Shown here one piece after another: positions 8,086 to 57,344 of a DNA stretch of 64,000 nt. Below the pieces are notes generated by a model. It was given only the letters and a program-made list of their open reading frames with translations, was not told the origin of the DNA and did no database searches. Made by a program: the position numbers and the translations under genes. Each line of letters starts with the position of its first letter. The first letter of the stretch is position 1. The stretch lies in assembly GCA_034509735.1 (NCBI GenBank), contig JACGWO010000006.1, positions 34,837,141 to 34,901,140 of the forward strand, written 5' to 3'. This DNA comes from Sesamum alatum (taxonomy: Eukaryota > Streptophyta > Magnoliopsida > Lamiales > Pedaliaceae).

Positions 8086-9048
8086 AATATATTTATAGTC
8101 ACAAAACTTTTTGGTGTAAAGGAGTGACACATATATATAGTAATAATGAAGTAAAGACAATTAAATTGTTTTTGTCAATGTATATGTGTTGTCGTTATAT
8201 ATATGTTATTAACTGTTTATTGTGGTAATTTTATAAAGAGTTTTCGCCAATAATGAATATATTACCAAAATCAAAATTATTGTTATTTAATATATATTTT
8301 TAATCTTAATTAAATTATCATTAATATTTTTGTTTTACTGTAATGTTTTCTTATTTATTTTTCTTAAGAAAAAAAGACAGATGATTTGCCGACAACATAA
8401 CTTTCCATTGATTGCAAAACGACAGATTCTTGAAAGGCTAAAAATGGGCTAGTTTTTGTGTGGTCGTACAAATTTCATGTTTTTTTTTTTGTTTTTTTTT
8501 GTTTTTTTGTTTTTTATATAGGTACAAATTTCATTTGGTTTATGATGGAAGAAAGCTTCAACTTTTTGTGATGCTAAAATTAATTAATCTTTTTTTCTAA
8601 ATTTAAAGATTTTTTCTATTGTTCATACATGCTTACTTATTATTATTATTATTGTTATTTATTTATTTATTCATATTTTTTGTGAAAGAAGAAAAATATA
8701 GAGTCCCGACGACATAACACTTCATTGATATTTGTTACATTTTGCATACACTTGGTCGCATAATTTTCCCTTTTTATTTTAAAATACACGATAAAATTTT
8801 TAAAGTATCATTTTGTTTCACTTACTACTGCTTTTGTTTTTTTGAAAAATAAAAATAAATTTAAGAACTAAAAAGAATCATAAAAAAAATCATAGGAGAA
8901 CCATACAATGTTTAAAATCGCGACATTACCAAATTACCTTTCAACAAGCACATTGTAATCATATAAGGAGAGTCGAAAAACGGATGTAATAGTAATTTCA
9001 CATAATTGAATCAAAACAAAAAAACTTTCACTCCTACAATTAAATTTA

Positions 9049-9327
9049 GGGATAATTATATTTACACCCCCTAATCAATGGTCTATTTATAGAAACTACT
9101 CATATTTTTTGGATAATTACATATACACTCATCAAAATGTGAACATAATGTACACAAACTAACTCTGACTTTTTAAAAAATTACACATACAACCCCCAAA
9201 ACGTTAACATCATTATACAAATCATTCTTATTTTTTTACTGTCAGGGGTGGTTTCTATAATTATGTAAAAAATAAGGATAATTTGTGTAAACAGACCGTA
9301 GATCAGGGAGTGCAAATGTAATTATCC
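9049..9327. mobile_element. foldback MITE (GGGATAATTA termini)
   Basis: The element starts GGGATAATTATATTTACACC and ends with the inverted form, TGCAAATGTAATTATCC. The flanks TTAAATTTA and TTTAAATTA are similar AT-rich 9-mers, possibly an imperfect target duplication. The same element lies in arm 2 at 56533-56811, so it predates the duplication. Confidence 0.65.
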
Positions 9328-10038
9328 TTTAAATTAGGAATGATTTAACAATATTATAAACTGAGTCGGACAGTAAAAATGACATTTTACCCATATCTCC
9401 CAATTTCTTTAAATAAATACTTGTTTTGAAATTATTGGTAAAGTAAATATGCAGCATACATATATATATATATATATATCATTAAATTTTAATCATTTTA
9501 TCTTGAGATAAATTGTGTACAAAGTACAAACATGCAAACTTTTGGTGCCTTTAATTTTCACGTGGAACTCCTTCGATTTTCCAACTTCGGATATTCAAAT
9601 GGATATCTTTTTCTGGCTTATTTATAATTATATTATAAAAAAAAATGTACGTGTACCGCCAAAGCGGTACACTTTGCAAAAATGTAGTCGGTCTTCAGCC
9701 CAGTCGGCGACTGGCGGTCGCCCGCTGGGCCAGCGACCAATGGTCGCCGGCAAGGTTGGCGACCGTGGGTCGCTTCCCCGGTCAGTGACCGCTGGTTGCT
9801 GCCCGGGGGAGCAACCCTTTTTTTTTTAATTTTTTAATTCGTTGTTATATTATATTTAATATATAATTATATTAATTGTTAATATATTTAATAAGATTTA
9901 CTAATTAAATATTATTTTATTATTTCAAGCTAATTATGATTAATTTATTCCAATAAAATAATGTTATTACAATTTTAAAATTCTTTACAATAACTAATAA
10001 ACTTAAAATTTTACTTTAAAAAAATATAATTACAAAAA

Positions 10039-10871
10039 TTAATAATGTCCGCCTGTATCACAATTACGCCTTTGTCGCTGTCGCCTAGGTCGTCGTATTT
10101 CCGGACTTGTTGGTTTATTTTGCTCTTGATCATCAATATAGGCATGAATTTGAAAATGACCAGATGATGCTGTAGAGCTCGACCCTATTCGATCACGATA
10201 TGCACTCCATGATGGAAATTGGATAGGTGAAACATTACGTACTGGTGCATATGTTTGATTCATGCCAAGACCAAGGTCAAGTTCAATATTTGTATAATGA
10301 CCTTAAGTATGTACTGGCATGTAAGGAGTCGATTGAAACCAATCATCTTGTTGAGGCGGTTCAGGCACGTAGCAATCTTCAGTAAAAAATTGAGAGGTAT
10401 GCACAGTAGATGGCCCAGCTATGTCAACCTCTGATGTATCTCTTTCTACTGTGCGAGTTGATCTCCTGCTACGACTTCGCGTTTGTCTGTGGGATGTGGA
10501 CGGAACATCATCTTGTGGAAATGGATTTTGAGGGGCTATACCTTGTCCCACTCGTTGATTTGTTGCAATTTGAACAACATTTCGATATATGTCCAAATGC
10601 GTTGTCATTGCTTGACGATATGCCTCTAGTTGATCGGGTGTAGTTTCACAACTTATTCGAAGAGTTTCCATTTGGTCAAGCTAAAGTGAACCGAATATAT
10701 TATAAGTGTGCAATTTTGAACGTGTGAAAATATAAAAATAGGATTAGAAATAAGTATGTTTACGAGATAACGTGCCACCATTTGCCACGATGTTGCATGT
10801 CCAGGTTGGTACCCACTTTCAACACGCATTTGAGCAGATGATGATATGAAACGACGTGTAATTTCATCATA
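10039..10871 (-). pseudogene. MULE-carried plant mobile domain (PMD) gene, 3' part
   Basis: Two exon pieces are readable on the - strand. The first (10871-10764) reads EITRRFISSSAQMRVESGY and ends at a GT donor. After an intron of about 83 bp (10763-10681, GTAAAC...TTTAG), the second exon starts LDQMETLRISCETTPDQLEA and continues to a stop at 10303. The same frame stays open beyond that stop to 10039 (ending QRRNCDTGGHY), so the stop is probably a nonsense mutation. The tail is rich in Arg, Ser and Gln. This matches, from memory, the C-terminal part of PMD (aminotransferase-like) proteins found in plant MULEs. The N-terminal body is missing, so it is not functional. Confidence 0.6.
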
Positions 10872-10888
10872 TCACTGCATTTGAGAGG

Positions 10889-11518
10889 ATGGCTAAGAGT
10901 ACTACAATGATAAACAGCAATCAACCGTGGATGGACTATGCATATAAAATGTTCCAATGGTGGTCCGCCAGATCCGTCGAGCATGTGGTCATGACATTCG
11001 ATCAAATTGAACAGACTACCTCTGTGGTTACGAGACATTATTATGGACAGGGGTGTAACACTCACGTTATGAAAATTGCAACGCAAGAGTGTTTATGTGG
11101 CAAATGGAATCAATTTGGAATACTATGCTCTCATGCTCAAAAGGTATGCACTGCATATAGGCTTAACGCTGCATCAATGATTAAGAAATATTATGCTTTA
11201 ATGGCTTACCGAATGACATATTCTGAATCTTTTCAACCGATATGGCGGAAGACTATTGGGATATTCCCAATTTTCAATTGGTCCACGATGATACTTTTCG
11301 TACATCAACTCGTCCGGGTCCACGCCAAAGTACCCGAATACCTAATGAAATGGATTCGGCACAAGCTCGTGCACGATAACAAATTCGTAGTCAATCCCGA
11401 CGAAACAAAGGTCCTTCAAGCCAAAGTAATGTCCAAAGGCAGGGTCGTAGACGACAAAATAATATACCAAATACTTGAATACACATTTTTATGTAATTTT
11501 TTAGTGTATTATTTTTAA
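10889..11518 (+). pseudogene. MULE transposase, C-terminal part with SWIM finger
   Basis: The 209-codon frame carries the SWIM zinc-finger pattern CxC...CxH in CLCGKWNQFGILCSHAQKVC, preceded by the usual strand-helix phrases (VTRHYYGQGCNTHVMKIATQ). This is the C-terminal part of MULE/MuDR-type transposases, which bind terminal inverted repeats. The DDE catalytic core, normally several hundred residues upstream, is absent. The frame begins within 20 bp of the oppositely oriented PMD remnant, so an internal deletion probably removed the 5' halves of both divergent genes. After about residue 115 the frame looks less transposase-like and may be frameshifted. Confidence 0.75.
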
Positions 11519-13212
11519 TTCTAAATTTTTATAATCATAATTGTTTAAATTATCATAAAGTCAATTTTTTTTTGTAATGAATAATCATAATTAGCTTGAA
11601 ATAATAAAATAAGATTTAATTAGTAAATCTTATTAAATATATTAACAATTAATATAATTATATATTAAATATAATATAAAAATGAATTAAAAATTAAAAA
11701 AAAAAGGGGTTGCTCCCCCGGGCAGCGACCGCTGGTCGCTGGCCCAGCGGGTGACCGCCGGTCGCCGACTGGGCTGGCGACCCATATAAAAAACTAATTT
11801 TTAATAGCCGGTCGCCAGCTACATTTTTGCAAAGTGTACCGCTTTGGCGGTACACGTGCAATTTTTTATTTTTTTTATAATATAATTATAAATAAGCCAT
11901 CATTTTCTTGGGACATGGAGTAGTTACAATAAAATTTTATATAAAATACATAAATTATACTGAATTATACTTTATTAATTTTAGTAAAATTTAATTATAA
12001 CTAAAAATAGAGGATAAATACACTACAAAAGAATGATTTTACTGGGATGAAAATTTGGAACGACCAATAGTGGTCACAAAATCTATCCCAGATATCCGAC
12101 GATTTTGTAACAAATTTTACTAATTTCTGAAGAATTTCTTTGATAGATGAAGGAATTGCACAATCCATCAGAGAAAAAAAAAAAAAAAAACAATTGTCGC
12201 AAATTCCACCAAAAAACAGGACGTAAAAATATGTTCGTCACTAATCGTCGGAAAGTTTGTCGGATTTTTTTTGAACCTTGGGACATAATTTCCAACGGCC
12301 GACGAAATTTTCTTTGGAACTTCTGACTACTCGATAATTTTTTGCGATGATAAGGCACGAGAAAGAAGTTAGTTTTTATTTTTTTAAAAAAATTAAGTAA
12401 AATATATGTAATTTTTCAAAATTTAAAAATAATAAAAATATGGTTGATGCTCCCTCAAACTTTTACTCTATGATCCCAAGAGCAAGGAGGTGAGACCTCA
12501 ACTAAACAACCTAGCAGGCAAAGCCCATTCTGCCCAAGGAGCAAGGATTGTAGCTCATAGGGCTATATTCTGTCCACTAACCTAGTAAACCCAGGAAAGA
12601 AGCCAAACACAACAAGCCTAGTTAGCGTATAACAGGAATTCCACCTCATATATGTGATTGACATGTGAGGACACATCACATTGAAATATCTTCAATAAAT
12701 TTCCAAAGACCCATCTGGAGTTCACGTTGGTCAACAAGTAACTGATTCCTGGAAAAGGTGGTAGACATGACAAGATTTAGTAAAACAATTTCTTTTCAGT
12801 CAATTTTTCCAAATCCTATGCGATTTTTTTGAGGAGATAGCTGACTCTTGTAGTTTCCTAATGGTAAACTGCACTCAGTAACAACCATCTGAATCTGGCT
12901 CCACGAGCGTCTATAAAATGGCTCTTTGTACAGTCATTTGTCAAGTTGGGACGGGTTTTGGCAGATTCTTTTTGTTTGAGACGGATAACAAAAATTACGT
13001 CATTTTGTTTTTCAAAAATAATTATAAAATAACTTGCGTCGTCTTTTGGGACTGGTTTTCAAACTGACGTTAAAATGATGTTTTTTATGTTAAGTTTCTG
13101 TGGGGTACAAACAACGTCTTTTTTAGTACCAAGGGACGTTGTGTTATTACATTTGCAACGGACTTTATTGCGAATTTATATTCTTTAGTACACATTGAGA
13201 TGATTTATTATA

Positions 13213-14334
13213 TTACAAGAAAATGACTTAATAGTGAAAAAAAAATTGTGCTGAAATCAGTGTCAAACTAATTAGCAAGTAAATTCTCATAGCTAATTTA
13301 CACTATTTAATATATATTTTAAATAGTTTGTTGCTAAATTTGTTAACAAGTAAATTTCTCATTGCTAAATTCATGAGCAAGTATTTTTTTTTGCATTAAC
13401 TAATGTAGTTTAGCAACGAGAATTTTACTTGCTAATTAACTCGACGTCGATTTTTTTGGGTTAAATACACTTTGCCCCTTGAATTTTCTCTGATATAACA
13501 ATTATCCCCCTAAACTATTACATATAACACTAACCCCCCTGGTTGGACAAAATTGCCCCTAATGCTTTGAATAATTATATTATTCTCAATATATTTTAGT
13601 ATTTTGCATATTAAATCATCACCAAATTATTTTCTAACTATTTTTTTCAAGGTGAAGAATTTAAATTAAAATGGTGTAATAAGTTCATATACATAATAAA
13701 TACAGAACAAATATAGTAACCCAACAAAAAAATCTTTTACATGAATTTTTTTTGTATATTTATTGTACTCATTCATTACTTAACTTAATTTTTTTTGTGT
13801 ATTTATTTTACATTTTGAACTATTTTACAATAAATACACAAAAAAAATTTCATGTAATTTTTTTTATTAATTTGGTAATAGTTAAGTTATTAACTATTTA
13901 CTTTATTAGATATGAATAAGTAATTACATATTCATTTTCTAAACATATTTTCTTTAAACTATATGATAAAATATATTTATTAATCTTTATTCTTAAAAGT
14001 GTTTAAATTTTGGTTAAGCATATATATTGTCAATTTCTTTTCAAAAGTATATATTAGTTGTTGAATTATTATATTTGTTGTGTATCTATCATATATATTC
14101 ACTTATTACACCACTTTTAATTTAAATTCTTCACTTATTAATTTTTTTTAGTTAAAAAATAATTTGGTGATGATTTAATCTGTAAAATACTAAAATATAT
14201 AAAAATAATATAATTATTCAAGGCTTGAGGGGCAATTTTGTCCAACCAGGAGGGTAAATGTTACATTTGATAGTTTAAGGGGATAAATGTTGCGTCAATT
14301 TCCTTGTAGCTATTGAACTCTTTTTTTTTTTTTT

Positions 14335-14366
<32 letters not shown>

Positions 14367-14420
14367 GTGTATTTAACTCTTTTTTTTTTTTTGTAGCTAT
14401 TGAACAATTTCCTTGTAGTA
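13213..14420. mobile_element. older CACTA-type MITE split by a foldback element
   Basis: The left part reads TATTACAAGAAAATGACTTA and continues with GCTGAAATCAGTGTCAAACT. The right end reads TTTCCTTGTAGTA. Both match the 204-bp MITE at 18775-18978, although the terminal CACTA has decayed. A foldback element interrupts it between CGACGTCGATTTT and TTTTGTAGCTATTG. A second copy with the same arrangement is in arm 2 at 53742-54942. Confidence 0.65.
13458..14377. mobile_element. foldback element (GGGTTAAATACAC termini)
   Basis: Ends are GGGTTAAATACACTTTGCCC and GAGTGTATTTAAC in inverse form. Inner phrases such as GGCAATTTTGTCCAACCAGG near the right repeat the left end inverted. The right end in arm 1 has a 24-T run followed by a 21-G run (14321-14365) and a local repeat of CCTTGTAGCTATTGAAC; arm 2 (53790-54695) lacks that repeat and has a shorter C run. 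The element is shared by both arms. Confidence 0.65.
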
Positions 14421-14738
14421 TTATATGGAATTTCTGTGATTTATTGTTCAGAATTCTGTGTTTCCAGTTGTTGTTTATGTTGAGACTTGAGATGGTTTAG
14501 TACAGATTGAGATGATTTTAGGCTGTTTAATTTTCGCAAATTAGTTGGAAATTTTTGAAAATTTGTATGTAAATTTGGATGTTCGCATTAGCATGATTTA
14601 GTACACATTGGGGAACTTTCTGAATTTTTTTAAAATATGTACGTATTTTTCTGAAATTGTCTAAGTTTTTGGTGAATTTTCTGAATTATTTGAATTTTTA
14701 TTGGAAAATATTAGGAATTTCATAACATTATTCCACAG

Positions 14739-14991
14739 GAGTCGCAGTTCGGCAGACCGCTAAAGAAGATTGAGCTTTTCTTCAAATACTATAAGAAGAA
14801 GGCAGACGGCAACTAGAGTGGGTCAACAACAACTACAAGAAGCAGGTGGCGGTAAGTACATTAAAATAAAAATAATTTAATTAATTATTTATTTTTTTAC
14901 TAATTTATTTTTTCTTATTTCAAGAGATCATCTAGAAGCTATTGGAGGACCAGACTGCCTAGGCACATGGGCACGAGGAGGCCGCTTTAAA
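14739..14991 (+). pseudogene. En/Spm-type plant transposase fragment (two exons)
   Basis: Exon a (14739-14851), after a CCACAG acceptor and before a GTAAGT donor, encodes ESQFGRPLKKIELFFKYYKK followed by KADGN and a stop. Exon b (14925-14991) follows a CAAG acceptor and reads like KLLEDQTA with more stops. The phrase GRP-KKIELF-KADGNW is typical of the Ptta/En/Spm plant transposase family (from memory). The arm 2 copy at 53177-53426 has the more conserved GRPPKKIEL. In-frame stops show it is dead. It supports the CACTA assignment of the surrounding element. Confidence 0.5.
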
Positions 14992-16159
14992 TTAAGATTT
15001 TTTATTCAATTTATATTTTTGTACAATTTTTTAAATTAAATATATATATTTTTATTAATTTTGTTTTTAATTTAATTGCAGTCCAATTTATTTGATAATT
15101 CAACTTATAAAAATTAAAAATAATTGAAACCATGAATTTAAATAGAAATAATTAATAATTAAATAACATAATTTATATAATCAAAAATGAAATAAAGTTA
15201 ATTTTTTGAAAAAATTCAAATATAACCTTTGCAGGGGACATGGTCGCAAAAATAAAACAATAAAAACAAATTCGCTGGAAAATTACCAAACTGATGCAAC
15301 AGTCGTCCAAATTGCGACAAGATGGATGTCACAAAGCCCGTCTGAAAACCGTGACGTCCCAAAACTTTTCAACGCATGTCATTGCAAATTCCATTTTAAA
15401 ATTGTTCCGTCTAGGGGTGTTTTCTGACGGGCATCCATCTCAAACCTTTGGACGATTTTGAGACGAACATTGTTGCAAAATATTTTGATTTTTTTAGTCA
15501 AATTCCATCCCAATGGAAAGCCATTGCAAATTTATTCAACAATTATTTATCTAAACCGAAATCCATAAGGAAGGATAGGATACAATAAGCCATATGACAA
15601 CATTTTGCCACGGTCAATTCCATCCGTCTCTAGTCTGTTGCAAATTTCAAATGGAAATTTTTTCCTATTCCAAATTTTTTCCAACACCATGAGCAACGAC
15701 CGGAAGTTGCCCGTAGCAAACCCCCGTCTCAAAAAATAACTCCTCGTTTGCAAAAGTCTGTCCCAAAAATCCATTTTCTTTTTTGTAGTGTTGAAGTACT
15801 CCTCAATGTGCTTTCAATTTTTGGTTCGAAAGTGTCAAATCTATTGTAACCAATCATCGTGTGAACTTGTTTGGATAATTCAACACCACAAAAAATTTCA
15901 AATTTTTGAAATTTTATTTTGAGATATTTTGTCACATGGTGACGGATTCTAAATTTATATATAGTGTGAAGTCATTTGAAATCCTTTAAATTCATTTGTC
16001 AAATTTAAATCATTCCATACCAAATATAACCTAAAACTATATCTGGATTGATGAATTTTAAAGTTATAAATCTCAAATTCTCAATAACAATTTTTTAGAT
16101 ATATTTGGATAATTTTAAATTATTTTTTCTTAAATCTTTCAATTTAAGGTTTCGTCTAA

Positions 16160-16649
16160 GGGAAAATAACATTTTTGGTCCCATAAGTTAGGCATGTTTC
16201 ACTTTTGGTCCCATTCGTTACGGGATTGGTATTTTTGGTCCTGTAACTTATGAAAATTCGCACTTTTAGTCCTCATCCACTTTTTTGTTCGTTTTTTAAC
16301 TTCGTCAGGCACATGCCTAATACATGGCCGTTAAGTATTTTTTGTTGGAGGGAAAATTGGTGCATTTTTCAACTTGGCAACACCTTGGCGGGGAGGGGGA
16401 ATATAACTATTTTGAGGGGAATAAACCAATTCTAAAGAAAATTAGGGCAAAGAAAGGAAAATTCTCTCTTCTCTAATAAAAATTGAATTTTTCTTCAAGC
16501 AAAAGTTACTTAAAAACCAAACAAAAAAGTGGATGAGGACCAAATATGTAAATTTTTGTAAGTTACGGGACCAAAAGTGCCAATCCCGTAATAAATGGAA
16601 CCAAAAGTAAAAAGAACCTAACTTATGGCACCAAAAATGCTATTTCCTT
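16160..16649. mobile_element. 490-bp MITE, arm 1 only
   Basis: It starts GGGAAAATAACATTTTTGG and ends with an inverted counterpart near GCTATTTCC. It is flanked by 10-bp TTTCGTCTAA duplications at 16150-16159 and 16650-16659. Arm 2 keeps a single TTAGACGAAAAC site near 52026, so it is a post-duplication insertion. Length and duplication size suggest a MULE-derived MITE. The repeated internal phrase TTTTTGGTCC runs inward from both ends. Confidence 0.85.
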
Positions 16650-16833
16650 TTTCGTCTAATATTAAATCATTTGAATCATTTTATCAAGTTGTTCCATCAA
16701 AGACAAATGCAGCATGGCACTTTCCCTTGCAGTTCGGTTCTTATCCTTTTCAATAGTCGCTTCTGATTGGTTAAATTAAACAACACGTGTTGATATACAC
16801 ATTATAAATTGGTTCCCAATAAAATATTTCTAA

Positions 16834-17791
16834 GGGTTAAATACTTTTTGCAGCCTCTAATTATGTTTAAAATAAAATTTATCCCCCTAAATTATAAAAT
16901 ATAACAAAATATCCCCTCAAGATATGACCCAACTTTTTTAGATGAAAATGCCCTTATTAGTTACACCCCTAAAATATATTTATTACAATTATTCCCGTAA
17001 AAAATAATTTGAATCATTAGAAATATTTTATTTAAAATAGACACTACTCAAAATTATGATTTTTATAATTGATATAGTATCTGTATAAACTTTATAAATT
17101 TACAATCCTTATATTTTTTTATATAACAGTTCAAACATTTAAATAATTTTTGCTTGTCCTGAATATATATATATATATATATTGAATGTTTTAAAAAAAA
17201 TAAATTATCAATCCAAGTTTAAATTATTACATCGAACATAAATATATACACACCGTAAAATATGCAAATATATAATATAATTAATCTATAATATTCTTTA
17301 ATATTTTGAGTAATATATTTTAATTATTCGTATATGTGATTGAATAAAAATTTATAAGTTACACAACATACTTTTTTATAAAATTATATGCATTATGTAC
17401 ATGTGATTGAATAAAAATCTATAAGTTACACAACATACTTTTTTTATAAAATTATATGCATTATGTATTTACACATATTCTCATGTATTTTTTAACACAA
17501 ATAATTTACTTTGTAAAAAACATTATTGAGATTGTAAATATTTTTTCTATTACATAATTTATAAAAAGCTATAAATTAAATATTATTTTTTATTTAAAGT
17601 AGTTCTCGGGGATTTTTTAAAAATAAAACATACTTTAGGAAGTAAAATAAAAAATATAGGGGTAAGTGAGAAGCACATTCTTGTCCTATATATCAATGCG
17701 AAATTATTTTCTCTGAGGAGGGGGTGTTCTTACGTCTCATACTTTAGGGGTAAATGCGACTATATGTCAAAAGGGTAAAATGTATTTACCC
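16834..17791. mobile_element. foldback element upstream of the P450
   Basis: Termini are GGGTTAAATACTTTTTGCAG and the inverse GTAAAATGTATTTACCC. It lies about 205 bp upstream of the P450 start codon. It occurs in arm 2, where a copia element splits it (43830 to 51853), and as a partial third copy at 57547-58163. Its right end lies about 150 bp upstream of the TATA box, so it may contribute promoter sequence. Confidence 0.65.
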
Positions 17792-17942
17792 TAATATTAA
17801 TTTAGAAATGTCCAATTTAGATATGATGCAATTAAAATAGTGATGGCCATATGTTCAGTCTTTTGTCTCTTTCCTTTATTGTTTTTGTCAAGAATTGGAA
17901 GATTTTTGTTGGGTTACATGCTTTTTATTTGTCTAAATTTCC

Positions 17943-17950
17943 TATAAATA
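17943..17950 (+). promoter_or_regulatory. TATA box of the arm 1 P450
   Basis: TATAAATA lies 46 bp upstream of the ATG, in a context (CCTATAAATAGGGG) kept in arm 2 and in the truncated third copy. A transcription start roughly 25-30 bp downstream would leave a short 5' leader of about 20-25 nt. Confidence 0.7.
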
Positions 17951-17995
17951 GGGGTGAGGTGCCCTCCTCCTCCCATCAGCAAAAAATATACCAAA

Positions 17996-25244: not shown

Positions 25245-25280
<36 letters not shown>

Positions 25281-43328: not shown

Positions 43329-43668
43329 AACTCGTTGTTGTAAGAAGATGAGCACCATATGTCTTTAAAGTCTTGTAAATGAAGGGCATGACACGAAGGC
43401 GGGGATCGTCGTTGATGTCGATAGGTTTGGAGTAGGATTCCTCGTACATGGCGGCGGATTCCCCGGCATCTCCGAAGAGAAACCTGTAAGAATTGCCTTT
43501 GAGGCCTTTGTTTCCTCAGGAATTTCTCCATTTTCCTGGGCTGGATCCAAACCCAGTTCAGGAATACCCATGCTTGGTGCAGCACTAGAACTAGCACTGA
43601 AGTAAGCAAGATGGATACCCACATTTTGGTCTATTTTTTGCTGATGGAGGAGGAGGGCACCTCACCCC

Positions 43669-43676
43669 TATTTATA
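43669..43676 (-). promoter_or_regulatory. TATA box of the arm 2 P450
   Basis: TATAAATA on the - strand, 45 bp upstream of the ATG at 43624, in the same context as arm 1. The core promoter survives, but everything more than 274 bp upstream of the ATG is displaced by copia 3. Confidence 0.65.
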
Positions 43677-43898
43677 GGAAATTTAGACAAATAAAAAGCA
43701 TGTAACCCAACAAAAACCTTCCAATTCTTGGCAAAAGCCAATTAATGGAAAGAGTCAAAAGAGTAAACATATGGCCATCACTATTTAATTGCATCATATC
43801 TAAATTGGACCACTTCTAAATTAATAATAGGGTAAATACATTTTACCCTTTTGAATTATGTATGTAGTCGCATTTACCCCTAAAGTATGAGACGTAAG

Positions 43899-45153
43899 TG
43901 TTGTAATTGACATTTTAGTGTTAATTTGTAACAACATATTGTTCTAAAATATGGGTTCAATTACACATGAATCCATAGATTAGATGATGAGAGAAATAGA
44001 GGGATTACACTTGTCCTACATAGGAATATAATGGGAAAGTGTGGAGCTTTGATAAGGATATAAAGGTGTATGTGGGGATGAGTGTTTTACACTGAATGTT
44101 GTCCCACATTGAAAGTTTAAGAATAACTTAAACTCCTTATATCAAGTTCAATGTTCAATATATGTTTGAAGTGTTATGGAGACTAGAGAGAATATGGGGT
44201 TGCCCCATACGCGCGTTGTCGTCGCCCGACTCCGGCGCGGGCGTGGGTGCTAATGTATTAGTCTCAGTATCTATCTTTTTGCAGCAAAAATATTTGATTT
44301 ATCTGATAAAACCCGGTGCATTTATGACTATCAAATCGTTTTAAAATCTGTTTTAAAAATCGTTTTAATGGTGCTTTAATACCAAATTTTAAACCTGGAT
44401 TAAATGCTGATTTATTACAAACCTGAAACTCCCGTATTTATGTGGCGGTTTCAGCTGATTTTAATGCCTAGTTTTAATAGCGTTTAATGGTTTTTAAACC
44501 TGTATTTAAAACCATTTTAAATTTCGTTAATGACTATTTATGTCAGCCTTAATGGTGGTTTAATGCTGCATTAATGATGGTAATTAATGCGGAAGTTGTA
44601 ACCGCTGATAGCCTTGCCTATATAAGGCTGCAAAGGCTCACTTCAAAGAAGGCATAACAGACACTTACGAATACGAAACACAACACGTGTTCCTCTCTCT
44701 CTTTTGCTCTCTCTTCTCTCGAATTCCTCTCTCAAATCCGAGAGTGTTTGTCCTGCAATTTTCGAGTTTTGACCTTCAGTTTTCCAAAGGCTACTGAGTG
44801 TTGTTTCGAGGTGTTCTTCGGTAAAGTGCATACCGTTAGAACTGAAACCGTCTTATCCTAGAAGAAGTTGTGTAGTACCCGTGTGCACGTTCGGTACGGG
44901 ACGTATAATTTCTTCAAGGCAAGCAGATTATATCTGTGATTCAGTTTGTTTATATCATTAGACCGAGAATTGTTACGATATAATCTCATTGTAAGTTTTA
45001 CTTTATCGCTATAACAGTATTTCTAACTGTTTCGTGTTATTTGGTTCCAACGTGTTTCTTGTGTTTTGGTTTCAAAACTGTTTGTAAAACCTGATTGTTA
45101 TTTCAAAATGATACTACGATTGTCTGTTTGACAACTTGTGATTTTTTCCAACA
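43899..45153 (+). repeat. 5' LTR of copia 3
   Basis: 1,255 bp. It contains TATA-like GCCTATATAAGGC at about 44615 and a downstream CT-rich leader (TCTCTCTCTTTTGCTCTCTC). Confidence 0.9.
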
Positions 45154-45289
45154 ATCTTGAAGAAATTATACGGTTTTGAAAAATCAGGCATTTTCGTTGG
45201 AACGAAAACAGTCATTGTTTTACGGTTTTAAATATTCGGATTTTGTTTTTTAAAATCTGTGATTTAGTTTCTGTTTCTTAATTATTAAA

Positions 45290-48200
45290 ATGGCCGATGC
45301 AATTTCTGTCGATATTCCGATCGCCCATAAAGTCGATTTATTCGGGATGCCGAAAAAGTTTTCGAGCCAAATTTTCAAACATTGGCAACAACGAATGAAA
45401 ATATGGTTGACGATGAAAGGACTTTTGTCGGTTATTCAGGTGAATTACCTGAACCAACTGAAACCGATCCTAAGACAGCTGAGATTGCTCAGTCGACCGA
45501 GTGGGATCAAATAGACAGAGGAGCTATTTTTGCCAGCGATGTCAAATATGCTCTTTGATGTCTACTGTTCCGATTCTTACACTGTAAAATCGCTGTGGGA
45601 TGAGTTGGACAGGAAATATAATACTGAAGAGCAAGGACTCGAAAAGTATTCTATTTCCAAGTTCATGAGGTATTAGATGGTCGAGGGAAGGTCTGTAACT
45701 GAACAGACGCATGAGATTATCAATCTTGAGCATTCTCTGTTTGATGTTGAGATGAAGCTTCCCGAAAAGTTTCTGGCCATGGCCATCGTGGATAAATTTC
45801 CCAAGTCTTGGGAAAGTTTTGGCATGATACTCAAGCATCAGAAAAGGGAGAATATCTCTGGATGATCTTATGGTCACGATAAGCATTGAGGAAGAGCACA
45901 GGAACTAGACCCACAAGATGCCGGTTTAGCATCAGCCAAAGGCCAATTTAGTAATCGGGAAAAAAGAAAGTGAATAAGGTTAACCCGAACTCGAAAATCA
46001 TCGATAAAGGCAAAGGCAAAGCCATTAAAAACAAGAAACCAAAAGCAAGCAAACCCTGCTGGAACTGTGGGCAGGTGGGATACTGGGCTAAGGACTGTCC
46101 TAATAAAAAGACCAAGTCCGAGCAGGCAACTGTCAACATGGTTGTGGGAGGAACTAGCAATGCTAGCACCTCAGGAGCAACTGAAGGGTATGTTTCTGTA
46201 CAACCCGAACTCCTTATAATCTATGAACCATTTGATTGGTTGATTGACACTGGCGCAAATGTGCACATCTGTGCTGATAAATCGTTGTTTGTGTCTTATC
46301 AGGCCATAAATGGAAGGACAGTAAGCATGGGGGATTCTAGTACAGCTGAAGTACTTGGGATATGAAGCGTGGACTTGAAGTTTCCTTCAGGGTGCATTCT
46401 GTCGTTGCAAAGAGTTCACCATGTACATACTGTTAGGAGAAACATTATCAGTGCTTCTGTAATAGTTAGTGAGGGATATGAATTATCCTTTAAATTTAAT
46501 AAAGTGATAATTCAACATTTTGGTGTTTTTGTTGGCAAAGGATATTTGTCTGATGGGTTATTCAAAATTCGAGTTGATAGCAATGATATTGCTGAATCTG
46601 ATTCTATTGTTTTGAATATCGAATCTACTTCTTTGTGGCATAGTAGATTAGGTCATTTAAATTTGGGTTCAATCAAACGAATGATGAATCTTGATTTAAT
46701 ACCTAATCATGAAATTGAACGAGGTCACAAATGTGAAATTTGTGTAGAAGCTAAGCAAGTTAGGAAACCCTATCAATCAGTTGAAAGGGATTCGAAAATA
46801 CTTGATTTAGTGCACACTGATATTTGTGAGTTCAATGGGATTTTGACTAAGGACCACAAGCGATATCTTATAACCTTTATAGATGATTGCAGTAGATACT
46901 GTTATGTCTTTCTCATGTGTAATAAAGATGAAGCGTTAGATAAATTTATTTTGTTTAAAAATGTAGCAGAAACCCAAACTGGTAAGAAACTTAAACAATT
47001 AAGGTCTGATAGAGGAGGAGAATATGAGGCGAGTAAGTTTAGTGAATTTTGTCAAAATTTTGGCATAATTCATGAGACTCCTCCACATTCCCCTTCGTCT
47101 AATGGAATTGCTGAACGAAAGAATAGAACCTTTAAAGACATGATTAACAGTCTTCTGTTAACCTCTGGGTTACCTAAGTATTTGTGGGGAGAGGCTTTGA
47201 ATACGGCTTGCCATATTCTAAATAGAGTTCCTCTGAAACACAATACGAGTACTCCTTTCGAGTTATGGAAAGGGAGAAAGCCAAGCCTCAAATACTTTAG
47301 AGTGTAGGGGTGCCTAGTAAAGGTACTGGTCCCTGAACACAAGAGAAAGAAATTGGGCCCTAAGACTGTTGATGCTGTGTTCTTGGGTTATGTGGAGACA
47401 AGTTATGCGCTGAGATTTTCTGGTTATTAAATCAGAAATTTTAGGCATTGAGGTCAACACAATAGTCAAATTTCGTGATGCTACTTTCCTGGAAGATGTA
47501 TTTCCCGTGAAAATGGGAATACCTCCTAGTATTTCACTTGATGATTCACTTGCCTCCAATTCTATTCCTGAACATGTGGAAAAGATGACAAATGTGGGGG
47601 TTAATCCTAGTAGTACTAGTCAGACTCATGAAGAGTCAAATGAACCTAGACGGAGTAAGAGAGCTAGGATCGTCAGGGATTTTGGAAGTGACGTTGTCAC
47701 TTACAATATCGAGGACGAGCCTGTAACCTTCAAAGATACTATGGCTTCTTCTGAAGTCAAGCATTGGAAGGAAGCTGTCAAAAGTAAGATAGACTCCATT
47801 GTTTCTAACGGGACATAGGTGCTAGTCGATCTCCCTCCGGGTGTACTACAATTGGATATAAGTGGATCTTTAACAAGAAACTGAAACCTGATGGACCATT
47901 GATAAGTTTAAGGCCAGATTGGTGGCTAAGGGTTTTAAACAAAAAGAGGGAATAGACTATTTCGATACCTATTCTCCGATAGCTCGGTTGACTACAATCT
48001 GGGTGCTTATAGCATTGGCCTCAGTGTATAATCTTCCGGTTCACCAGATGGATGTGAAAACAACCTTCTTGTATGGTAAACTAGAGGAAGAGATATACAT
48101 GGACCAACCTGAGGGATTTGTAGCTCATGGTAACGAGCACAAGGTTTGTAAACTTGTTAAGTCTCTTTATGGACTTAAGCAAGCACCCAAACAGTGGCAT

Positions 48201-49200
48201 GAAAAGTTTGATATAACTATTCTTGCGTTTGGCTCTATCGTGAATGAGAATGACAAGTGTGTTTACTGTAAAATTTAAGGAGAGAAAATTATCATTATAT
48301 GCCTGTATGTAGATGATATTCTGTTAATAGGATCATCTTTAGACATTATTATGGAAACCAAGTCATTTTTGAAAAATAAGTTTGAAATGAAGGATATGGG
48401 TGAGGCTAATGTAATTCTTGGCATCAAGATTGATTCGGTCAACTGATGGGATAGATGTTTCTCAATCTCACTATGTTGAGAAGATAATTGAGAAATTTGG
48501 CTATCAGAACAGTAGAATTGCTAAGACACCATATGATCTTTCTGTGGCTTTATTCAAAAATGAAAGTGGTACACCTGTTGCACAACTAAGGTATTCCCAA
48601 ATTATTGAGAGTTTGCAGTATTTGGCAAATGGCACGAGACCAGACATTTTATTTTCTGTCTCGAAATTGGCTAGCTACACGAGTTGTCCGGACAAAACTC
48701 ATTAGGGAGCTTTGGATAGGGTACTTTAAGGGCACAATGTCATTGTCTATTCATTATGGAAGATTCCCTACTGTTTTGAAAGGTTATAGTGATGCTAGTT
48801 GGATAGCCAAAAACTCCGGAACTAATGGGTGTTCAGGATATGTGTTTACCTTACGTGGGGGTGCAGTCTCCTAGAAGTCTGCAAAACAAACTTTGATAAC
48901 CCGGTCTACTTTTGAAGCCGAGTTATATGCGTTCGATACGACTGGTACCGAGGCAGAATGGTTGTATGGGTTGTTACTACAACTTCCCATGGTAAACTAG
49001 CCTCTTCCACCTATTATTGTATATCGTGATAGTCAGAACACAATAGCAAAGGTTCGTAGTCGTAAATACAACTAAAAGACAAAAAGACACATCCAAATTA
49101 GACTTAAGTCTATAAGGGCATTAGTGTCGGAGAGAGTTATAGGCATTGACTTTGTGGGAACAAAGGACAATGTGGTTGATCCTTTGACGAAAAGATTAGA
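45290..49200 (+). pseudogene. copia 3 gag-pol remnant
   Basis: Gag starts at ATG 45290 (MADAISVDIPIAHKVDLFGM) and is broken by frameshifts near 45445 and 45540 and an in-frame stop at 45675. The knuckle at about 46050 reads CWNCGQVGYWAKDC, with Tyr where the zinc-binding His belongs. Protease is WLIDTGANVHIC. Integrase (46369-47307) keeps WHSRLGHLN, CEICVEAK, FIDDCSRY, RSDRGGEYE and NGIAERKNRT. RT is split over 47507-48700 with MDVKTTFLYGKLEEEIYMDQ, YGLKQAPKQWHEKFD and YVDDILL (48309). RNase H has stops (ARTSTFEAELYA-like region near 48900; DPLTKRL near 49180). The high lesion load agrees with its older LTRs. Confidence 0.85.
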
Positions 49201-49792
49201 TTGTCACAAGTACAAAAATCCAGATTAGGGATGGGACTGAACCCCTCAGTGATATAACTACGATAGCAACCCAACCTTCCAAGTGGAGATCCCACAAAGA
49301 AGGTTCGATGTAGTATTAACAAGTCGTAGGGGATATCCGAGCACCTAAAAATAGACTGATACTTTGTATCTGGAGTTTGTCCCCTGTAATTCTGGAAGAT
49401 GCTGTTACTGCAAGTATAGTAAGAGTTTTAACTCTGAATAGGGTCAAGTCTTTATAGACGAGATGCTAAGCAGTGCATCCCTGGAGACGCCCAACTAAGT
49501 GAATGGAGTTGTTTGGCCGTAACTAAGGAATGGGGTTATTCCTGAAAACATTCAACGAACAGGATCATGACACATGGCCTAACGTGTCAACCCTATAGAT
49601 CAACACAAAGCCGGTGGCTTGTTGTTACTAACAGACGTTGTCACAACCACGGGCTCAAATTCAAGGCTTAGTTCCATTTGACCCGGTGACAGCTGACGTT
49701 AGATAACTTAGGTAGTGGTTCAAACCGGGAGGTACCATTGCTAAAAGCAAGTCACAGAAGCTTGAGTTCAAATCTATGGATTTGTGAGGGAT

Positions 49793-51048
49793 TGTTGTAA
49801 TTGACATTTTAATGTTAATTTGTAACAACATATTATTCTAAAATATGGGTTCAATTACACATGAATCCATAGATTAGATGGTAAGAGAACTAGAGGGATT
49901 ACACTTGTCCTATATAGGAATATGATGGGAAAGTGTGGAGCTTTGAAAAGGATATAAAGGTGTATGTGGGGATGAGTGTTTTACACTGAATGTTGTCCCA
50001 CATTGAAAGTTTAAGGATAATTTAAACTCCTTATATCAAGTTCAATGTTCAATATATGTTTGAAGTGTTATGGAGACTAGAGAGAACATGGAGTTGCCCC
50101 ATATGCGCTGCCGCCGCCTGACTCCGGCGTGGGCGCGGGCGCTAATGTCTCAGTCTCAGTATCTATCTTTTTGCAGAAAAAATATTTGGATTTATCTTAT
50201 AAAACCCTGTGCATTTATGACTATCAAATGGTTTTAAAATATGGTTTAAAAATCATTTTAATGGTGCTTTAATACCAGATTTTAAACCTAGATTAAATGT
50301 TGATTTATTACAAACCTGAAACTCCCGTATTTATGTGGCGGTTTCAGCGGGTTTTAATGTCTGGTTTTAATAGCGTTTAATAGTTTTTAAACCTGTATTT
50401 AAAATCATTTTAAATTCCGTTAATGGCTATTTATGTTAGCTTTAATGATTGTTTAATGTTGTACTAATGATGGTAATTAATGCGGAAGTTATAACCACTG
50501 ATAGCCTTGCCTATATAAGGCTGCAAAGGCTCACTTTAAAGAAGGCATAACAGACACTTACGAATACAAAACACAACACGTGTTCCTCTCTCTCTTTTGC
50601 TCTCTCTTCTCTCGAATTTCTCTCTCAAATCCGAGAGTGTTTGTCTTGCAATTTTCAAGTTTTGAGCTTCAGTTTCCCAAAGGCTACCGAGTGTTATTTC
50701 AAGGTGTTTTTCGGTAAAGTGCATACCGTTAGAACTGAAACCGTCTTATCCTGGAAGAAGTTGCGTAGTACCCGTGTGCACGTTCGGTACAGGACGTATA
50801 ATTTCTTCAAGGCAAACAAATTATATCTGTGATTCGGTTTTGTTTATATCATTGGACCGAGAATTGTTACGATACAATTCTCATTGTTAGTTTTACTTTA
50901 TCGCTATAACAGTATTTCTAACTATTTCGTATTATTTGGTTCCAACGTGTTTCTTGTGTTTTGGTCTCAAGATTGTTTGTAAAATTTGATTGTTATTTCA
51001 AAATGATACTGCGATTGTCTGTTTGACAACTTGTGATTTTTTCCAACA
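49793..51048 (+). repeat. 3' LTR of copia 3
   Basis: 1,256 bp, colinear with 43899-45153 but with many substitutions, for example ATTTTAATG for ATTTTAGTG near the start and CATATGCGCTGCCGCC for CATACGCGCGTTGTCG. Confidence 0.9.
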
Positions 51049-53176
51049 GTAAGAACACCCCCTCCCCGGAGAAAATAATTTCGCATTGATATATAGGACA
51101 AAAATGTGGTTCTCACTTACCCCCTATAATTTTTATTTTATTTTTAAAAAATTCCCCCAGAACTGCTTTAAATAAAAAATAATATTTAATTTATAGCTTT
51201 TTATAAATTCTGTAATACAAAAAATATTTACAATCTCAATAATGTTTTTTACAAAGTAAATTATTGGAGTTAAAAAATACATGTGAATATGTATAAATAC
51301 ATAATGCATATAATTTTATAAAAAAGTATGTTGTCTAACCTATAAATTTTTATTCAATCACATGTATGAATAATTAAAATGTATTATATCATTACTCAAA
51401 ATATTAAATAATGTTATAGATTAATTATATTATATATATTTGCATAAATATTATATATATTTATGTTCGATGTAATAATTTAAACTTGGATCGATAATTT
51501 ATTTTTTGAAAACGTTCAATATATATAACAGGACAAGTTAAAATTATGTAAATGTTTGAAATGTTATGTAAAAAATATAAGGATTGTATATTTATAGAGT
51601 TTATACAGATACTATATTAATTATAAAAATCATAATTTTGAGTAGTATCTATTTTAAATAAAATATTCCTAATGATTCAAATTATGTAATTCAGGGGAAT
51701 AATGTAATAAATATATTCTAGGGGTGTAACTAATAAGGGCATTTTCGTCCTAAAAAAATTGGCATATCTTGAGGGGATATTTTGTTATATTTTATAATTT
51801 AGGGGGATAAATTTATTTTATACATAATTAGGACTGCAAAAAGTATTTAACCCTTAGAATTATTTTGTTGGGAACCAATTTATAATGTGTATATCAACAC
51901 GTGTTGTTTTTAACCAATCAGAAGGGACTATTGAAAAGGATAAGAACCGAACTGCAAGGGAAAGTGCTATGCTGCATTTGGATTTGATGGAACAACTTAA
52001 AAAAATGATTCAAATGATTTAATATTAGACGAAAACTTAAATTGAAAGATTTAAGAAAAAATAATTTAAAATTATCCAAATATATCTAAAAAATTGTTAT
52101 TGAGAATTCATCAACCAAGATGTAGTTTTAGGTTATATTTGGTACGGAATGATTTGAATTTGAGGAATGAATTTAAAGGAATTCAAATGGCTTCACGCTA
52201 TATAGATTCAGAATCCGTCACCATGTGACAACATATCTCAAAATAAAATTTCAAGAATTTGAAATTTTTTGTGGTGTTGAATTATCCAAACAAGTTCGCG
52301 CGATGATTGGTTACAATGAATTTGACACTTTTGAACTAAAAATTGGAAGCACGTTGAGGAGTACTTCAACACTACAAAAAAGAAAACGGGTTTTTGGGAC
52401 AGACTTTTGCAAATGAGGAGTTACTTTATGAGACGGGGGTTTGCGACGGGCAACTTCCGGTCGTTGCTCATGGTGTCGGAAAAAATTTGGAACAGGAAAA
52501 AAATTTCCATTTGAAATTTGCAACAGACTAGAGACGGATGGAATTGACCATGGCAAAATGTTGTCATATGGCTTATTCTGTATCCTATCCTTCCTTACGG
52601 ATTTCGGCTTAGACAAATAATTGTTGAATAAATTTGCAATGGCTTTCCATTGGGATGGAATTTGACTAAAAAAATCAAAATATTTTGCAGGGGTGTTCGT
52701 CTCAAAATTGTCCAAAGGTTTGAGATGGATGCCCGTTAGAAAACACCCCTAGACGGAACAATTTTAAAATGGAATTTGCAATGACAGGCGTTGGAAAGTT
52801 TTGGGACAGCATGATTTTCAGACGGGCTTTGCAACATCCATCTTGTCGCAATTTGGGTGACTATTGCATCAGTTTGGTAATTTTCCAGCGAATTTGTTTT
52901 TATTCTTTTATTTTTGCGACCATGTCCGTTGCAAAGGTCATATTTGAATTTTTTTAAAATACTAACTTTATTTTATTTTTGATTATATAAATTATGTTAT
53001 TTAATTATTAATTATTTCTATTTAAATTTATGGTTTCAATTATTTTTAATTTTTTTATAAGTTGAATTATTAAATAAATTAGACTGCAATTAAATTAAAG
53101 ACAGAATTAATAAAAAATATATATATTTAACTTAAAAAATTGTACAAAAATATAAATTAAATAAAAAATCTTAATT

Positions 53177-53426
53177 TAAAGCGGCCTCCTCGTGCCCACG
53201 TGCCTAGGCAGTCTGGTCCTCCAATAGCTTCTAGAAGATTTCCTGAAATAAGAAAAAATAAATTTGTAAAAAAATAAATAAATAATTAAATTATTTTTAT
53301 TTTATTGTACTTACCGCCACCTGCTTCTTGTAGTTGACGTCGACCCACTCCAGTTGCCGTTGCCTTCTTCTTGTAGTATCTGGATAAAAGCTCAATCTTC
53401 TTTGGCGGCCTGCCGAGCTGCGACTC
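53177..53426 (-). pseudogene. En/Spm-type transposase fragment, arm 2 copy
   Basis: Two exons on the - strand (53426-53315 and 53242-53177). Exon a reads ESQLGRPPKKIELLSRYYKK and keeps the Pro-Pro of the family where arm 1 has Pro-Leu. A base lost after KKKA shifts the frame, so it is also dead. Exon b has in-frame stops in both copies. Confidence 0.5.
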
Positions 53427-53741
53427 CTGTGGAATAATGTTATGAAATTCCTAATATTTCCCAATAAAAATTCAAATAATTCAGAAAATTCACCAAAAAC
53501 TCATAAAATCTCAGTAAAATACATACATATTTTAGAAAATTTCAGAAAATTCCCCAATGTGTACTAAATCATGCTAATGCGAACATACAAATTTTCAAAA
53601 ATTTCCAACTAATTTGCGAAAATTAAACAGCCTAAGATCATCTCAATCTGTACTAAACCATCTTAATTTTCTCAATTCTCAACATAAACAACAACTGGAA
53701 ACACAGAATTCTGAACAATAAATCACAGAAATTCTATATAA

Positions 53742-54942
53742 TACTACAAGGAAATTGTTCAATAGCTACAAAAAAAAAAAAAAAAAAGAGTTAAATACAC
53801 TCCCCCCCCCCCCCCCAATTATCCTTGACGTAACATTTATCCCCTTAAACTATCAAATGTAACATTTACCCCCCTGGTTGAACAAAATTGCCCCTCATGC
53901 CTTGAATAATTATATTATTTTTATATATTTTAGTATTTTACAGATTAAATCATCACAAAATTATTTTTTAACTAAAAAAAATTAATAAGTGAAGAATTTG
54001 AATTAAAAGTGGTGTAATAAGTGAATATATATGATAGATACACAACAAATATAATAATCCAACAAATAATATATACTTTTGAAAAGAAATTAACAATATA
54101 TATGGTTAACCAAAATTTAAACACTTTTAAGAATAAAGATTAATAAATATATTTTATCATATAATTTAAAAAATATGTTTAAAAAATGAATATGTAATTA
54201 CTGATTCATATCTAAAAATGTAAATAATTAATAACTTAATATTACAAAATTAATAAAAAAAAATTACATGAAATTTTTTTGTGTATTTATTGTCCTCATT
54301 CATTACTTAACCTTAAGTCTGTAAAATAGTTCAAATTGTAAAATAAATACACAAAAAAAATTAAGTTAAGTAATGAATGAGTACAATAAATATACAAAAA
54401 ACTTTCATGTAAAAGATTTTTTTTTATTGGGTTACTATATTTGTTTAGTATTTATTATGTATATGAACTTATTACACCATTTTAATTTAAATTCTTCACC
54501 TTGAAAAAAATAGTTAGAAAATAATTTGGTGATGATTTAATATGCAAAATACTAAAATATATTGAGAATAATATAATTATTCAAAGCATTAGGGGCAATT
54601 TTGTCCAACCAGGGGGGTAAGTGTTATATTTAATAGTTTAGGGGGATAATTGTTACATCAGAGAAAATTCAAGGGGGCAAAGTGTATTTAATCCCAAAAA
54701 AATCAACGTCGAGTTAATTAGCCAGTAAAATTCTCGTTGTTAAACTACATTAATTAATGCAAAAAAAATTACTTGCTAATAAATTTAGCAATGAGAATTT
54801 TACTTGTTAACGAATTTAGCAACAAACTTTAAAATATATATTAAATAGTGTAAAAATTAGCTATGAGAATTTACTTGCTAATTAGTTTGACGCTGATTTC
54901 AGCACAATTTTTTTTTAACTATTAAGTCATTTTCTTGTAATA
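53742..54942. mobile_element. older CACTA-type MITE, arm 2 copy
   Basis: Mirror of 13213-14420. Ends TACTACAAGGAAATTG and TTTTCTTGTAATA; split by the foldback element at 53790-54695. Confidence 0.6.
53790..54695. mobile_element. foldback element, arm 2 copy
   Basis: Mirror of 13458-14377, ends GTTAAATACACTCCCC and AAGTGTATTTAATCCC. It has a shorter C run (about 15) than the 21-base run in arm 1 and lacks the 24-base T run and repeated segment. Confidence 0.6.
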
Positions 54943-56249
54943 TAATAAATCATCTCAATGTGTACTAAAGAATAAAAATTCACGATAAAGTCCGTTGCAA
55001 ATGTAATAACACAACGTCGCTTGGTACTAAAAATGACGTTGTTTGTACCCCGCATAAACTTAACATAACAACATCATTTTAACGTCAGTTTGAAAACCCA
55101 TCCCAAAAGTCGACGCAAAATTATTTTATAATTATTTTTGAAAAAAAAATGATGTAATTTTTGTTATCCGTTTCAGACAAAAAGAATATGCCAAAACCCG
55201 TTCCAACTTGACAAATGATAGCACAAAGAGCCATTTTATAGACGCTCGTGGAGCCAGATTCAGATGGTTGTTACTGAGTGCCGTATACCATTAGAAAGCT
55301 ACAAGAGTCAGCTATCTCCTAAAAAAATTCTCATAGGATTTGGAAAAATTAACTGAAATGAAATTGTTTTACTAAATCTTGTCATGCCTACCACATTTTC
55401 CAGAAATCAGTTACATGTTCACCAAAACGTGAACTCCAGATGGGTCTTTGGAAATTTATTGGAGATATTTCAATATAATGTGTCCTCACATGTCAGTCAC
55501 ATGTAAGAGGTGGAATCCCTGTTATACGCTAACTAGGCTTGCTGTTTGGCTTCTTTCTTGGGTTTACTAGGTTAGTGAACAGAATGTAGCCCTATGAGCT
55601 ACAATCCTTGCTACTTGGGCCAAGTGAGCTTTGCTTGCTAGGTTGTTCAGCCGAGGTCTCACCTCCTTGCTCTTGGGATAATAGAGTAAAAGTTTGAGAG
55701 AGCATCAACCATACTTTTATTATTTTTAAATTTTGAAAAATTACATATATTTTACTTTTTAATTTTTTTTTAAAAAATTAAAACTAACTTCTTTCTCGTG
55801 CCTTATCATCGCAAAAAATTATCGAGTATTCAGAAGTTCCACCGAAAATTTCATCGGCCGTTGGAAATTCTGTCCTAAGGTTCAAAAAAAAATCCGACAA
55901 ATTTTTCGACAATTAGCGACGGACATATTTTCACGTCCTATTTTTTGATGGAATTTGCGATAATTTTTTTTTTCCTCTGATGGATTGTGCATTTCCTTCA
56001 TCTATCAAAGAAATTCTTCGAAAATTAGTAAAATTTGTTACAAAATCGTCGGAATCTGGGATAGATTTTGTGACCAATTTGTGACCATTATTGGCCGTTC
56101 CAAATTTTCATACCAGTAAAATGATTCTTTTGTAGTGTATTTATCCTCTATTTTTAGTTATAATTAAATTTTACTAAAATTAATAAAGTATAATTCAGTA
56201 TAATTTATGTATTTTATATAAAATTCTATTGTAACTACTCCATGTCCCA

Positions 56250-56259
56250 AGAAAATGAT
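56250..56259. other. empty MULE target site
   Basis: Single AGAAAATGAT in unbroken sequence. In arm 1 the reverse complement is duplicated around the MULE at 9615-11898. Confidence 0.8.
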
Positions 56260-56532
56260 ATCCATTTGAATATCCCAAGTTGGAAAATCGAAGGAGTTCC
56301 ACGTGAAAATTAAAGGCACAAAAAGTTTGCATGTTTGTACTTTGTACACAATTTATCTCAAGATAAAATGATTAAAATTTAATGATATATATATATATAT
56401 GTATGCTGCATATTTACTTTACCAATAATTTCAAAACAAGTATTTATTTAAAGGAATTGGGAGATATGGGTAAAATGTCATTTTTACTGTCCGATTCAGT
56501 TTATAATATTGTTAAATGAGTCCTAATTTAAA

Positions 56533-56811
56533 GGATAATTACATTTGTACTCCCTTATCTACGGTCTGTTTGCACAAATTATCCTTATCTTTTACATAAT
56601 TATCAAAACACCCCTGACAGTAAAAAAACAAGGATGATTTGTATAATAATGTTAACATTTTGGGGGGTTGTATGTGTAATTTTTTAAAAAGTCAGAGTTA
56701 GTTTGTGTACATTATGTTGACATTCTGATGGGTGTATATATAATTATCCAAAAAATATGAATAGTTTGTATAAATAGACCATTGATTAGGGGGTGTAAAT
56801 ATAATTATCCC
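56533..56811. mobile_element. foldback MITE, arm 2 copy
   Basis: Mirror of 9049-9327, ends GGATAATTACATTTGTAC and GTAAATATAATTATCCC. Confidence 0.65.
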
Positions 56812-57344
56812 TAAATTTAATTGTAGGAGTAAAAGTTTCTTTGTTTTGATTCAATTATGTGAAATTACTATTTCATCCGTTTTTCGACTCTCCTTATATG
56901 ATTATAATGTGCTTGTTGAAAGGTAATTTGGTAACGTCGCGATTTTAAATATTGTATGGTTCTCCTATGATTTTTTTTTTGTTTTTAAATTTAATTTTAT
57001 TTCCCAAAAGAAAAGCAGTAGTAAGGGATACAAAATGATATTTTAAAATTTTTATCGTGTATTTTAAAATAAAAAGGAAAAATTATGCGACCAAGTGTAT
57101 GGAAAATGTAACAAATATCAATGAAGTATTATGTCGTTGGGACTCTATATTTTTCTTCTTTCACAAAAAAAAAAATGAATAAATAAATAAATAAATAAAT
57201 AATAAAAAGTAAGCATGTATGAACAATAGAAAAAATCTTTAACTTTTAGAAAAAAAATAATTAATTTTAGCATCACAAAAATTTGACTTCTTCCATCATA
57301 AACCAAATGAAATTTGTACGACCACACAAAAGCTAGCCCATTTT

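Follow-up and report, generated by a model that had tools for sequence, protein, structure and literature searches.

We analysed a stretch of 64,000 nucleotides from Sesamum alatum (contig JACGWO010000006.1, positions 34,837,141 to 34,901,140; hereafter the window), which very probably holds a genuine local duplication of a CYP72-type cytochrome P450 (P450) gene in inverted, tail-to-tail arrangement; its two arms later diverged, and one of them now looks to be decaying. Self-BLAST of the window revealed a continuous antiparallel chain between arm 1 and arm 2 (8522-23339 / 57319-26033), as had been claimed in an earlier reading of the sequence (hereafter the original prediction). When inspected by eye, the match extended outward to 8441/57344, beyond a poly-T insertion in arm 1, which agreed with the outer coordinates predicted. 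Each arm is about 11.9 kb long with recognised private insertions removed, close to the 12 kb expected. An inverted segmental duplication is recognised by two copies in opposite orientation whose collinearity continues beyond the gene, and the chain shows this over the length of each arm. The most instructive detail of the locus is a probable recent copying patch between the two genes.

The inverted pair of P450 genes

The arms face each other across a single spacer, and the window has a composition of 34.7% G+C and an N count of 0.

8441..23339, + strand: arm 1 of the inverted duplication (self-BLAST; border sequences inspected by eye)
26033..57344, - strand: arm 2 of the inverted duplication, private insertions included (self-BLAST; border sequences inspected by eye)
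23340..26032, no strand: spacer separating the arms; AT-rich, containing tandem repeats and GC-rich stretches of low complexity
Antiparallel chain segments from self-BLAST, arm 1/arm 2: 8522-9614/57319-56250; 11899-16159/56259-52025; 16649-17733/52035-51049; 17729-18291/43898-43328; 18286-18648/37382-37020; 18649-18773/36797-36671; 18979-19469/36672-36189; 19461-21668/35698-33501; 21663-23339/27707-26033
17996..23126, + strand: P450 gene of arm 1, five exons, open over 518 aa (GT/AG exon model; PF00067 in exons 4 and 5; Sesamum homologues at 75%)
17996-18263, 18350-18573, 20796-21043, 21692-22079, 22698-23126, + strand: exons 1 to 5 of arm 1
26241..43624, - strand: P450 copy of arm 2 (exon model; PF00067 in exons 4 and 5)
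43356-43624 (frameshift), 37095-37318, 34111-34358, 27291-27678, 26241-26669, - strand: exons 1 to 5 of arm 2

The GT/AG splice sites corresponded between the five-exon models of both arms. Exons 4 and 5 of both arms matched PF00067, exon 3 pieces alone gave no match in either arm, and exon 4 also matched 15 distinct solved P450 sequences. P450 proteins are recognised by their heme-cysteine and ExxR motifs, and both were present in the arm 1 translation. In the protein search (7999 candidates scored, 2695 found, 120 listed), the best three among the matches listed were Sesamum proteins with 75% identity to the P450, including a Sesamum CYP72A219-like protein, and none of the 120 was closer than 75%. 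A Vitex protein named aucubin synthase showed 49% identity and tobacco CYP72A219 showed 42%. Membership of the CYP72 family requires identity above about 40% to named members; judged by the values for the tobacco and Sesamum proteins, the gene of both arms is a CYP72-type P450. Gene duplication with facing copies is ordinary for plant P450 genes.

In a protein tree of 40 rows (the two arms and 38 of the first 47 found proteins, picked by length), the arms grouped as sisters (100/100) nested in a Sesamum clade, and the arm 2 branch (0.065) was longer than that of arm 1 (0.01). With arm 2 put in the register of arm 1, 32 of 518 residues differed, and the resulting encoded identity of 93.8% bore out the earlier figure of about 93%. 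Searches by tblastn with the arm 1 protein found no further P450 piece in the spacer or flanks, all 11 rows (E up to 1) belonging to the two genes; with the homologues, the best 60 rows were all inside the two genes and held no further P450 piece. The spacer showed no match to either arm among the self-BLAST matches listed (at least 80 columns), and RNA families (gathering threshold) and tRNAs gave 0 matches each in the window. Tandem repeats that are G+C-rich, with units of about 29-61 bp, were observed at 23868-24088 in the spacer.

The near-identical tract across exon 1 and intron 1

Comparison of the arms at 11,504 aligned sites yielded 763 differences, and one tract around the first exon stood apart.

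17990..18369, + strand: near-identical tract from the end of the 5' untranslated region through exon 1 and intron 1 into exon 2; 373 aligned sites identical with one substitution between, a length attained in 0 of 2000 shuffles

Exon 1 and intron 1 together carried 1 substitution in 348 sites between the arms; intron 1 was identical at 86 of 86 bases, and about 59 silent sites of exon 1 showed no change. The 373 identical sites of the tract exceeded all 2000 shuffles, the largest of which reached 235. Under the mean noncoding rate, the chance that the exon 1 silent sites and intron 1 sites would all remain unchanged was 1.1e-5; under the flank rate of 0.058 it was 1.7e-4. A stretch more alike than its surroundings, silent and intron sites included, is the pattern left by gene conversion, and it points to a later conversion between the arms, because selection on the protein does not account for unchanged silent sites and intron 1 bases. 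Strong purifying selection as the cause instead of conversion appears highly improbable: all five exons are more alike between the arms than introns 2 and 3, as it would predict, but it has to face the two low chances given above, and the other exons do differ (8/224, 11/248, 11/388 and 25/429 sites in exons 2, 3, 4 and 5, respectively). Element B, a retrotransposon described below, and the arm 2 frameshift both lie inside the exon 1 tract and so probably postdate the conversion.

Transposon load and probable decay of arm 2

Three long terminal repeat (LTR) retrotransposons are present in or just upstream of the arm 2 gene.

27707..33500, + strand: copia-type LTR element A, inserted in intron 3 of the arm 2 gene with 28 bp between it and exon 4; target-site duplication AACAA; LTR divergence (K) 0.0063
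37383..43328, + strand: copia-type LTR element B, inserted in intron 1 of the arm 2 gene; target-site duplication AACTC; LTR K 0.0014
43899..51048, + strand: copia-type LTR element C, upstream of the arm 2 gene; target duplication GTAAG; LTR K 0.064

Paired LTRs, 5-bp target duplications and an integrase before RVT_2 identified all three as Ty1/copia elements, and their gag_pre-integrs, rve and RVT_2 domains agree with this; in element B the rve match fell below the Pfam cut-off (24 vs 32.6 bits) and the RVT_2 match was above it. Element C, about 210 bp upstream of the arm 2 TATA box, has its coding region split into several short frames. Arm 1 holds an empty site for each element, and these three sites together with the 5-bp duplications support the predicted order, in which the inverted duplication preceded the copia insertions into one arm. 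The further claim that it did so by a long interval stood for elements A and B and failed for element C by raw divergence (0.064 vs 0.0755, the K of noncoding arm DNA; standard error 0.003, 9843 sites). Differences between the LTRs of element C comprised 63 transitions and 13 transversions vs 432 and 272 in the arms (p 1.4e-4), and a transition excess is expected of methylated repeats. Transversions were rarer in element C (13/1253) than in the arms (274/9947; p 9e-5). Among the divergence measures, only the transversions set element C clearly after the duplication. Together with the empty site in arm 1 they make it the younger of the two, though its raw divergence is too close to that of the arms to call it much younger.

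The copia elements make up 18.9 kb of arm 2, in line with the predicted 19 kb, vs the 3.0 kb that recognised private insertions contribute to arm 1. By number, there were four or five insertions in arm 2 vs four in arm 1, and the presence of all three LTR elements in the same arm corresponds to p = 0.25. The one-sided load that had been proposed is thus real in bases and not in counts, and no special cause is needed for it. The other private insertions are as follows.

9614..11899, no strand: Mutator-like (MULE-like) insertion, arm 1, terminal inverted repeats of about 410 bp (76%), imperfect 10-bp duplication
16160..16652, no strand: miniature inverted-repeat transposable element (MITE), arm 1, inverted ends of about 136 bp, of one family with 35697-36188
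35697..36188, no strand: MITE, arm 2 intron 2 (self-BLAST; sequences inspected)
18774..18978, no strand: 205-bp MITE, arm 1 intron 2, presumably CACTA-type, CACTACAAGAAAA-like ends, 3-bp duplication AAC
about 8480-8515 (region 8466-8530): poly-T insertion, arm 1, 13-bp duplication GTACAAATTTCAT on its flanks, without counterpart in arm 2

The poly-T stretch is a short retroposed insertion and, with its 13-bp duplication, was overlooked when arm 1 was said to have gained only a MULE and two MITEs; the MITE of arm 2 was likewise absent from that account. The MITEs at 16160-16652 and 35697-36188 are 83% alike and occupy different places, one per arm. The MULE-like insertion gave a SWIM-like match below the Pfam cut-off (17.1 vs 19.6 bits), and older sequence related to the 205-bp MITE occurs in both arms (13214-13457, 54696-54939). 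A further 222 bp at 36798-37019, present in arm 2 and not in arm 1, represent an insertion in arm 2 or a deletion in arm 1.

The P450 reading frame of arm 1 is open over 518 codons and arm 2 carries a frameshift in exon 1. For exons 2-5, dS was 0.089 and dN 0.032 between the arms. With the derived state set by the majority of 10 homologues, the 32 residue differences were divided into 21 derived in arm 2, nine derived in arm 1 and two unclear (21 vs 9, p = 0.043). Among the positions changed in arm 2 are 467, the glycine two residues past the heme cysteine (G in 9/10 homologues), and 326, which is the oxygen-binding motif's alanine (A in 9/10 homologues). These data suggested that arm 1 is probably functional and that arm 2 looks like a decaying pseudogene.

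The loaded copy is thus also the damaged copy, as the original prediction had stated, and cause and effect cannot be read from this fact, because the frameshift is inside the near-identical tract, hence presumably later than the homogenisation, late and after element C. A killing of arm 2 by the copia insertions, with release of constraint, is conceivable and somewhat unlikely in our judgement. All three elements are in or just upstream of the gene, element A only 28 bp before exon 4, which would favour it. Elements A and B, however, are very young, and the 21 derived residues suggest a longer time; only element C is old enough, and it lies upstream of the TATA box at the distance given above; a loss of function followed by tolerated insertions fits equally well. 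Silencing by hairpin RNA from the facing arms, in which about 25 kb separates the two copies of exon 1, is speculation.

The third copy and the history of the locus

At its outer end, arm 2 joins a truncated third copy of the gene, which was missing from the earlier account of the locus.

57345..58163, - strand: truncated third copy of the P450 gene; TATA-box promoter, no start codon, 15-16 bp of exon 1

The two share ATGGG at the junction, as judged by eye, and the last 60 bases of the third copy were also placed by eye and not by an alignment program. The third copy is without element C, its site being empty. Over the 776 columns common to the three copies, K was 0.0577 between arms 1 and 2, 0.0606 between arm 1 and the third copy, and 0.0496 between arm 2 and the third copy. 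By its sequence, the arm 2 outer border is a rearrangement junction with the third copy and not a simple duplication end, and it was probably produced by a second rearrangement, a tandem duplication with breakpoints in exon 1 and at a point like 8441.

An assembly artefact, with two haplotypes or distant tandem copies joined in opposite orientation, is very unlikely for this locus. Repeated elements and the AT-rich low-complexity spacer are places where assembly may fail; but the noncoding K of 0.0755 and the independent insertions on each side would exceed what is expected of ordinary alleles, the spacer is single, and the arm 2 outer border is a sharp junction with the third copy. Several observations do weigh against a local inverted duplication followed by divergence, conversion and decay of one arm. 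Linkage of the arms is known from the assembled sequence alone. In 754 of 1000 bootstraps, arm 2 and the third copy paired most closely (three sequences, no outgroup, unrooted), and three sequences without an outgroup would fit either order of the inverted and the tandem duplication. Divergence is uneven, with 375/6439 sites (5.8%) in the flanks vs 275/2603 (10.6%) in introns 2-3 (p 3e-14; transversions alone, p 8e-5), so the segments do not all agree with a single duplication date; the flanks may have undergone conversion, the introns may change faster, or another paralogue may have taken part in conversion. The shuffles presuppose even rates along the arms, and a second identical run of 171 sites at 13533-13703 also exceeded the limit of 140 that bounds the longest run in 95% of shuffles; it may be a second conversion tract, and further tracts or differences in rate are possible. 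Moreover, the 21:9 excess of changes in arm 2 is only marginally significant, and arm 1 has lost an arginine at residue 424, which is L there and R in all 10 homologues compared. The 13533-13703 run contains no P450 exon and is in or near an old transposon common to both arms.

Preferring the inverted duplication, we infer the following order of events from the arms, insertions, empty sites, divergence pattern, frameshift and third copy that were observed. The locus would have come to hold at least three copies of the 5' end of the P450 gene, with a tail-to-tail duplication of the CYP72-type gene, after which the arms would have diverged and transposons entered each. Element C would then have inserted upstream of the arm 2 gene, and exon 1 and intron 1 of arm 2 would have been homogenised with arm 1 by gene conversion. 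Element B and the frameshift would have arrived after the conversion, element A being of similar youth, and arm 1 would have remained readable as arm 2 decayed as a pseudogene.

The inverted GSTT2 pair of primates and the palindromes of the willow sex chromosome are precedents for an inverted pair with conversion. In human and chimpanzee, GSTT2 is a tandem inverted duplication with gene conversion (Marotta et al. 2012, PMC3375281); according to the abstract, it shares with the present locus an inverted duplicate of an enzyme gene, conversion between copies and the possibility that duplicates die. In contrast, conversion at that primate locus spread silencing mutations, whereas the frameshift here is in one arm only, and LTR insertions, of which arm 2 has three, are unmentioned in the abstract (PMC3375281). 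In willow, plant inverted repeats with gene conversion are discussed in the available part of the report (PMC7023750), but they belong to a sex chromosome, and conversion here would concern one short tract. CYP72 P450s (CYP72A219-like) are the family of the gene in both arms by sequence. A study of CYP72A phylogeny describes species-specific clades and mentions pseudogenes in the available part (PMC5036807); its main text has 'tandem' and 'inver' 0 times, whereas the pair here is tail to tail with one copy broken. No publication on the inverted P450 locus was recognised in a literature search judged by titles and abstract starts, which is no proof of absence; a paper on a 22-Mb region of maize (PMC2773423) contributed nothing specific. 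At a single locus, an inverted pair lets duplication, conversion, the arrival of transposons and the decay of a pseudogene be dated relative to one another. The present one suggests that homogenisation of a first exon can mask how old two duplicates are, and that conversion can renew part of a copy not long before it breaks. The locus is useful for CYP72 annotation in sesame relatives, where arm 2 could easily be mistaken for a gene.

Within about 640 bp, the third-copy breakpoint, the presumed recent conversion tract, element B in that tract and element C just upstream occur together. That the 5' end of the P450 gene is a recurrent site of recombination and insertion is nevertheless an unlikely proposition, the clustering having been seen afterwards, and so is the further idea that the arms, the third copy and their near-equal divergence derive from one template-switching event. 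To the right of 58163, a continuation of the third copy upstream was sought with sensitive scoring, and five weak matches (59-71%) were found and not counted. The best of them (arm 1 about 13749-14215 to 58638-58200, 60.7% over 476 columns, E 1e-12) is oriented as expected after a tandem duplication; it was set aside because it is far more diverged than the arms and inside an old transposon common to both. The continuation may be outside the window. Open frames in G+C-richer DNA at 59465-62373 gave no Pfam match above the cut-off and left only the impression of a gypsy-type remnant. At 58150-58200, where the similarity of the third copy stops, a weak hairpin is accompanied by CTAG followed by T, a candidate Helitron-like 3' end.

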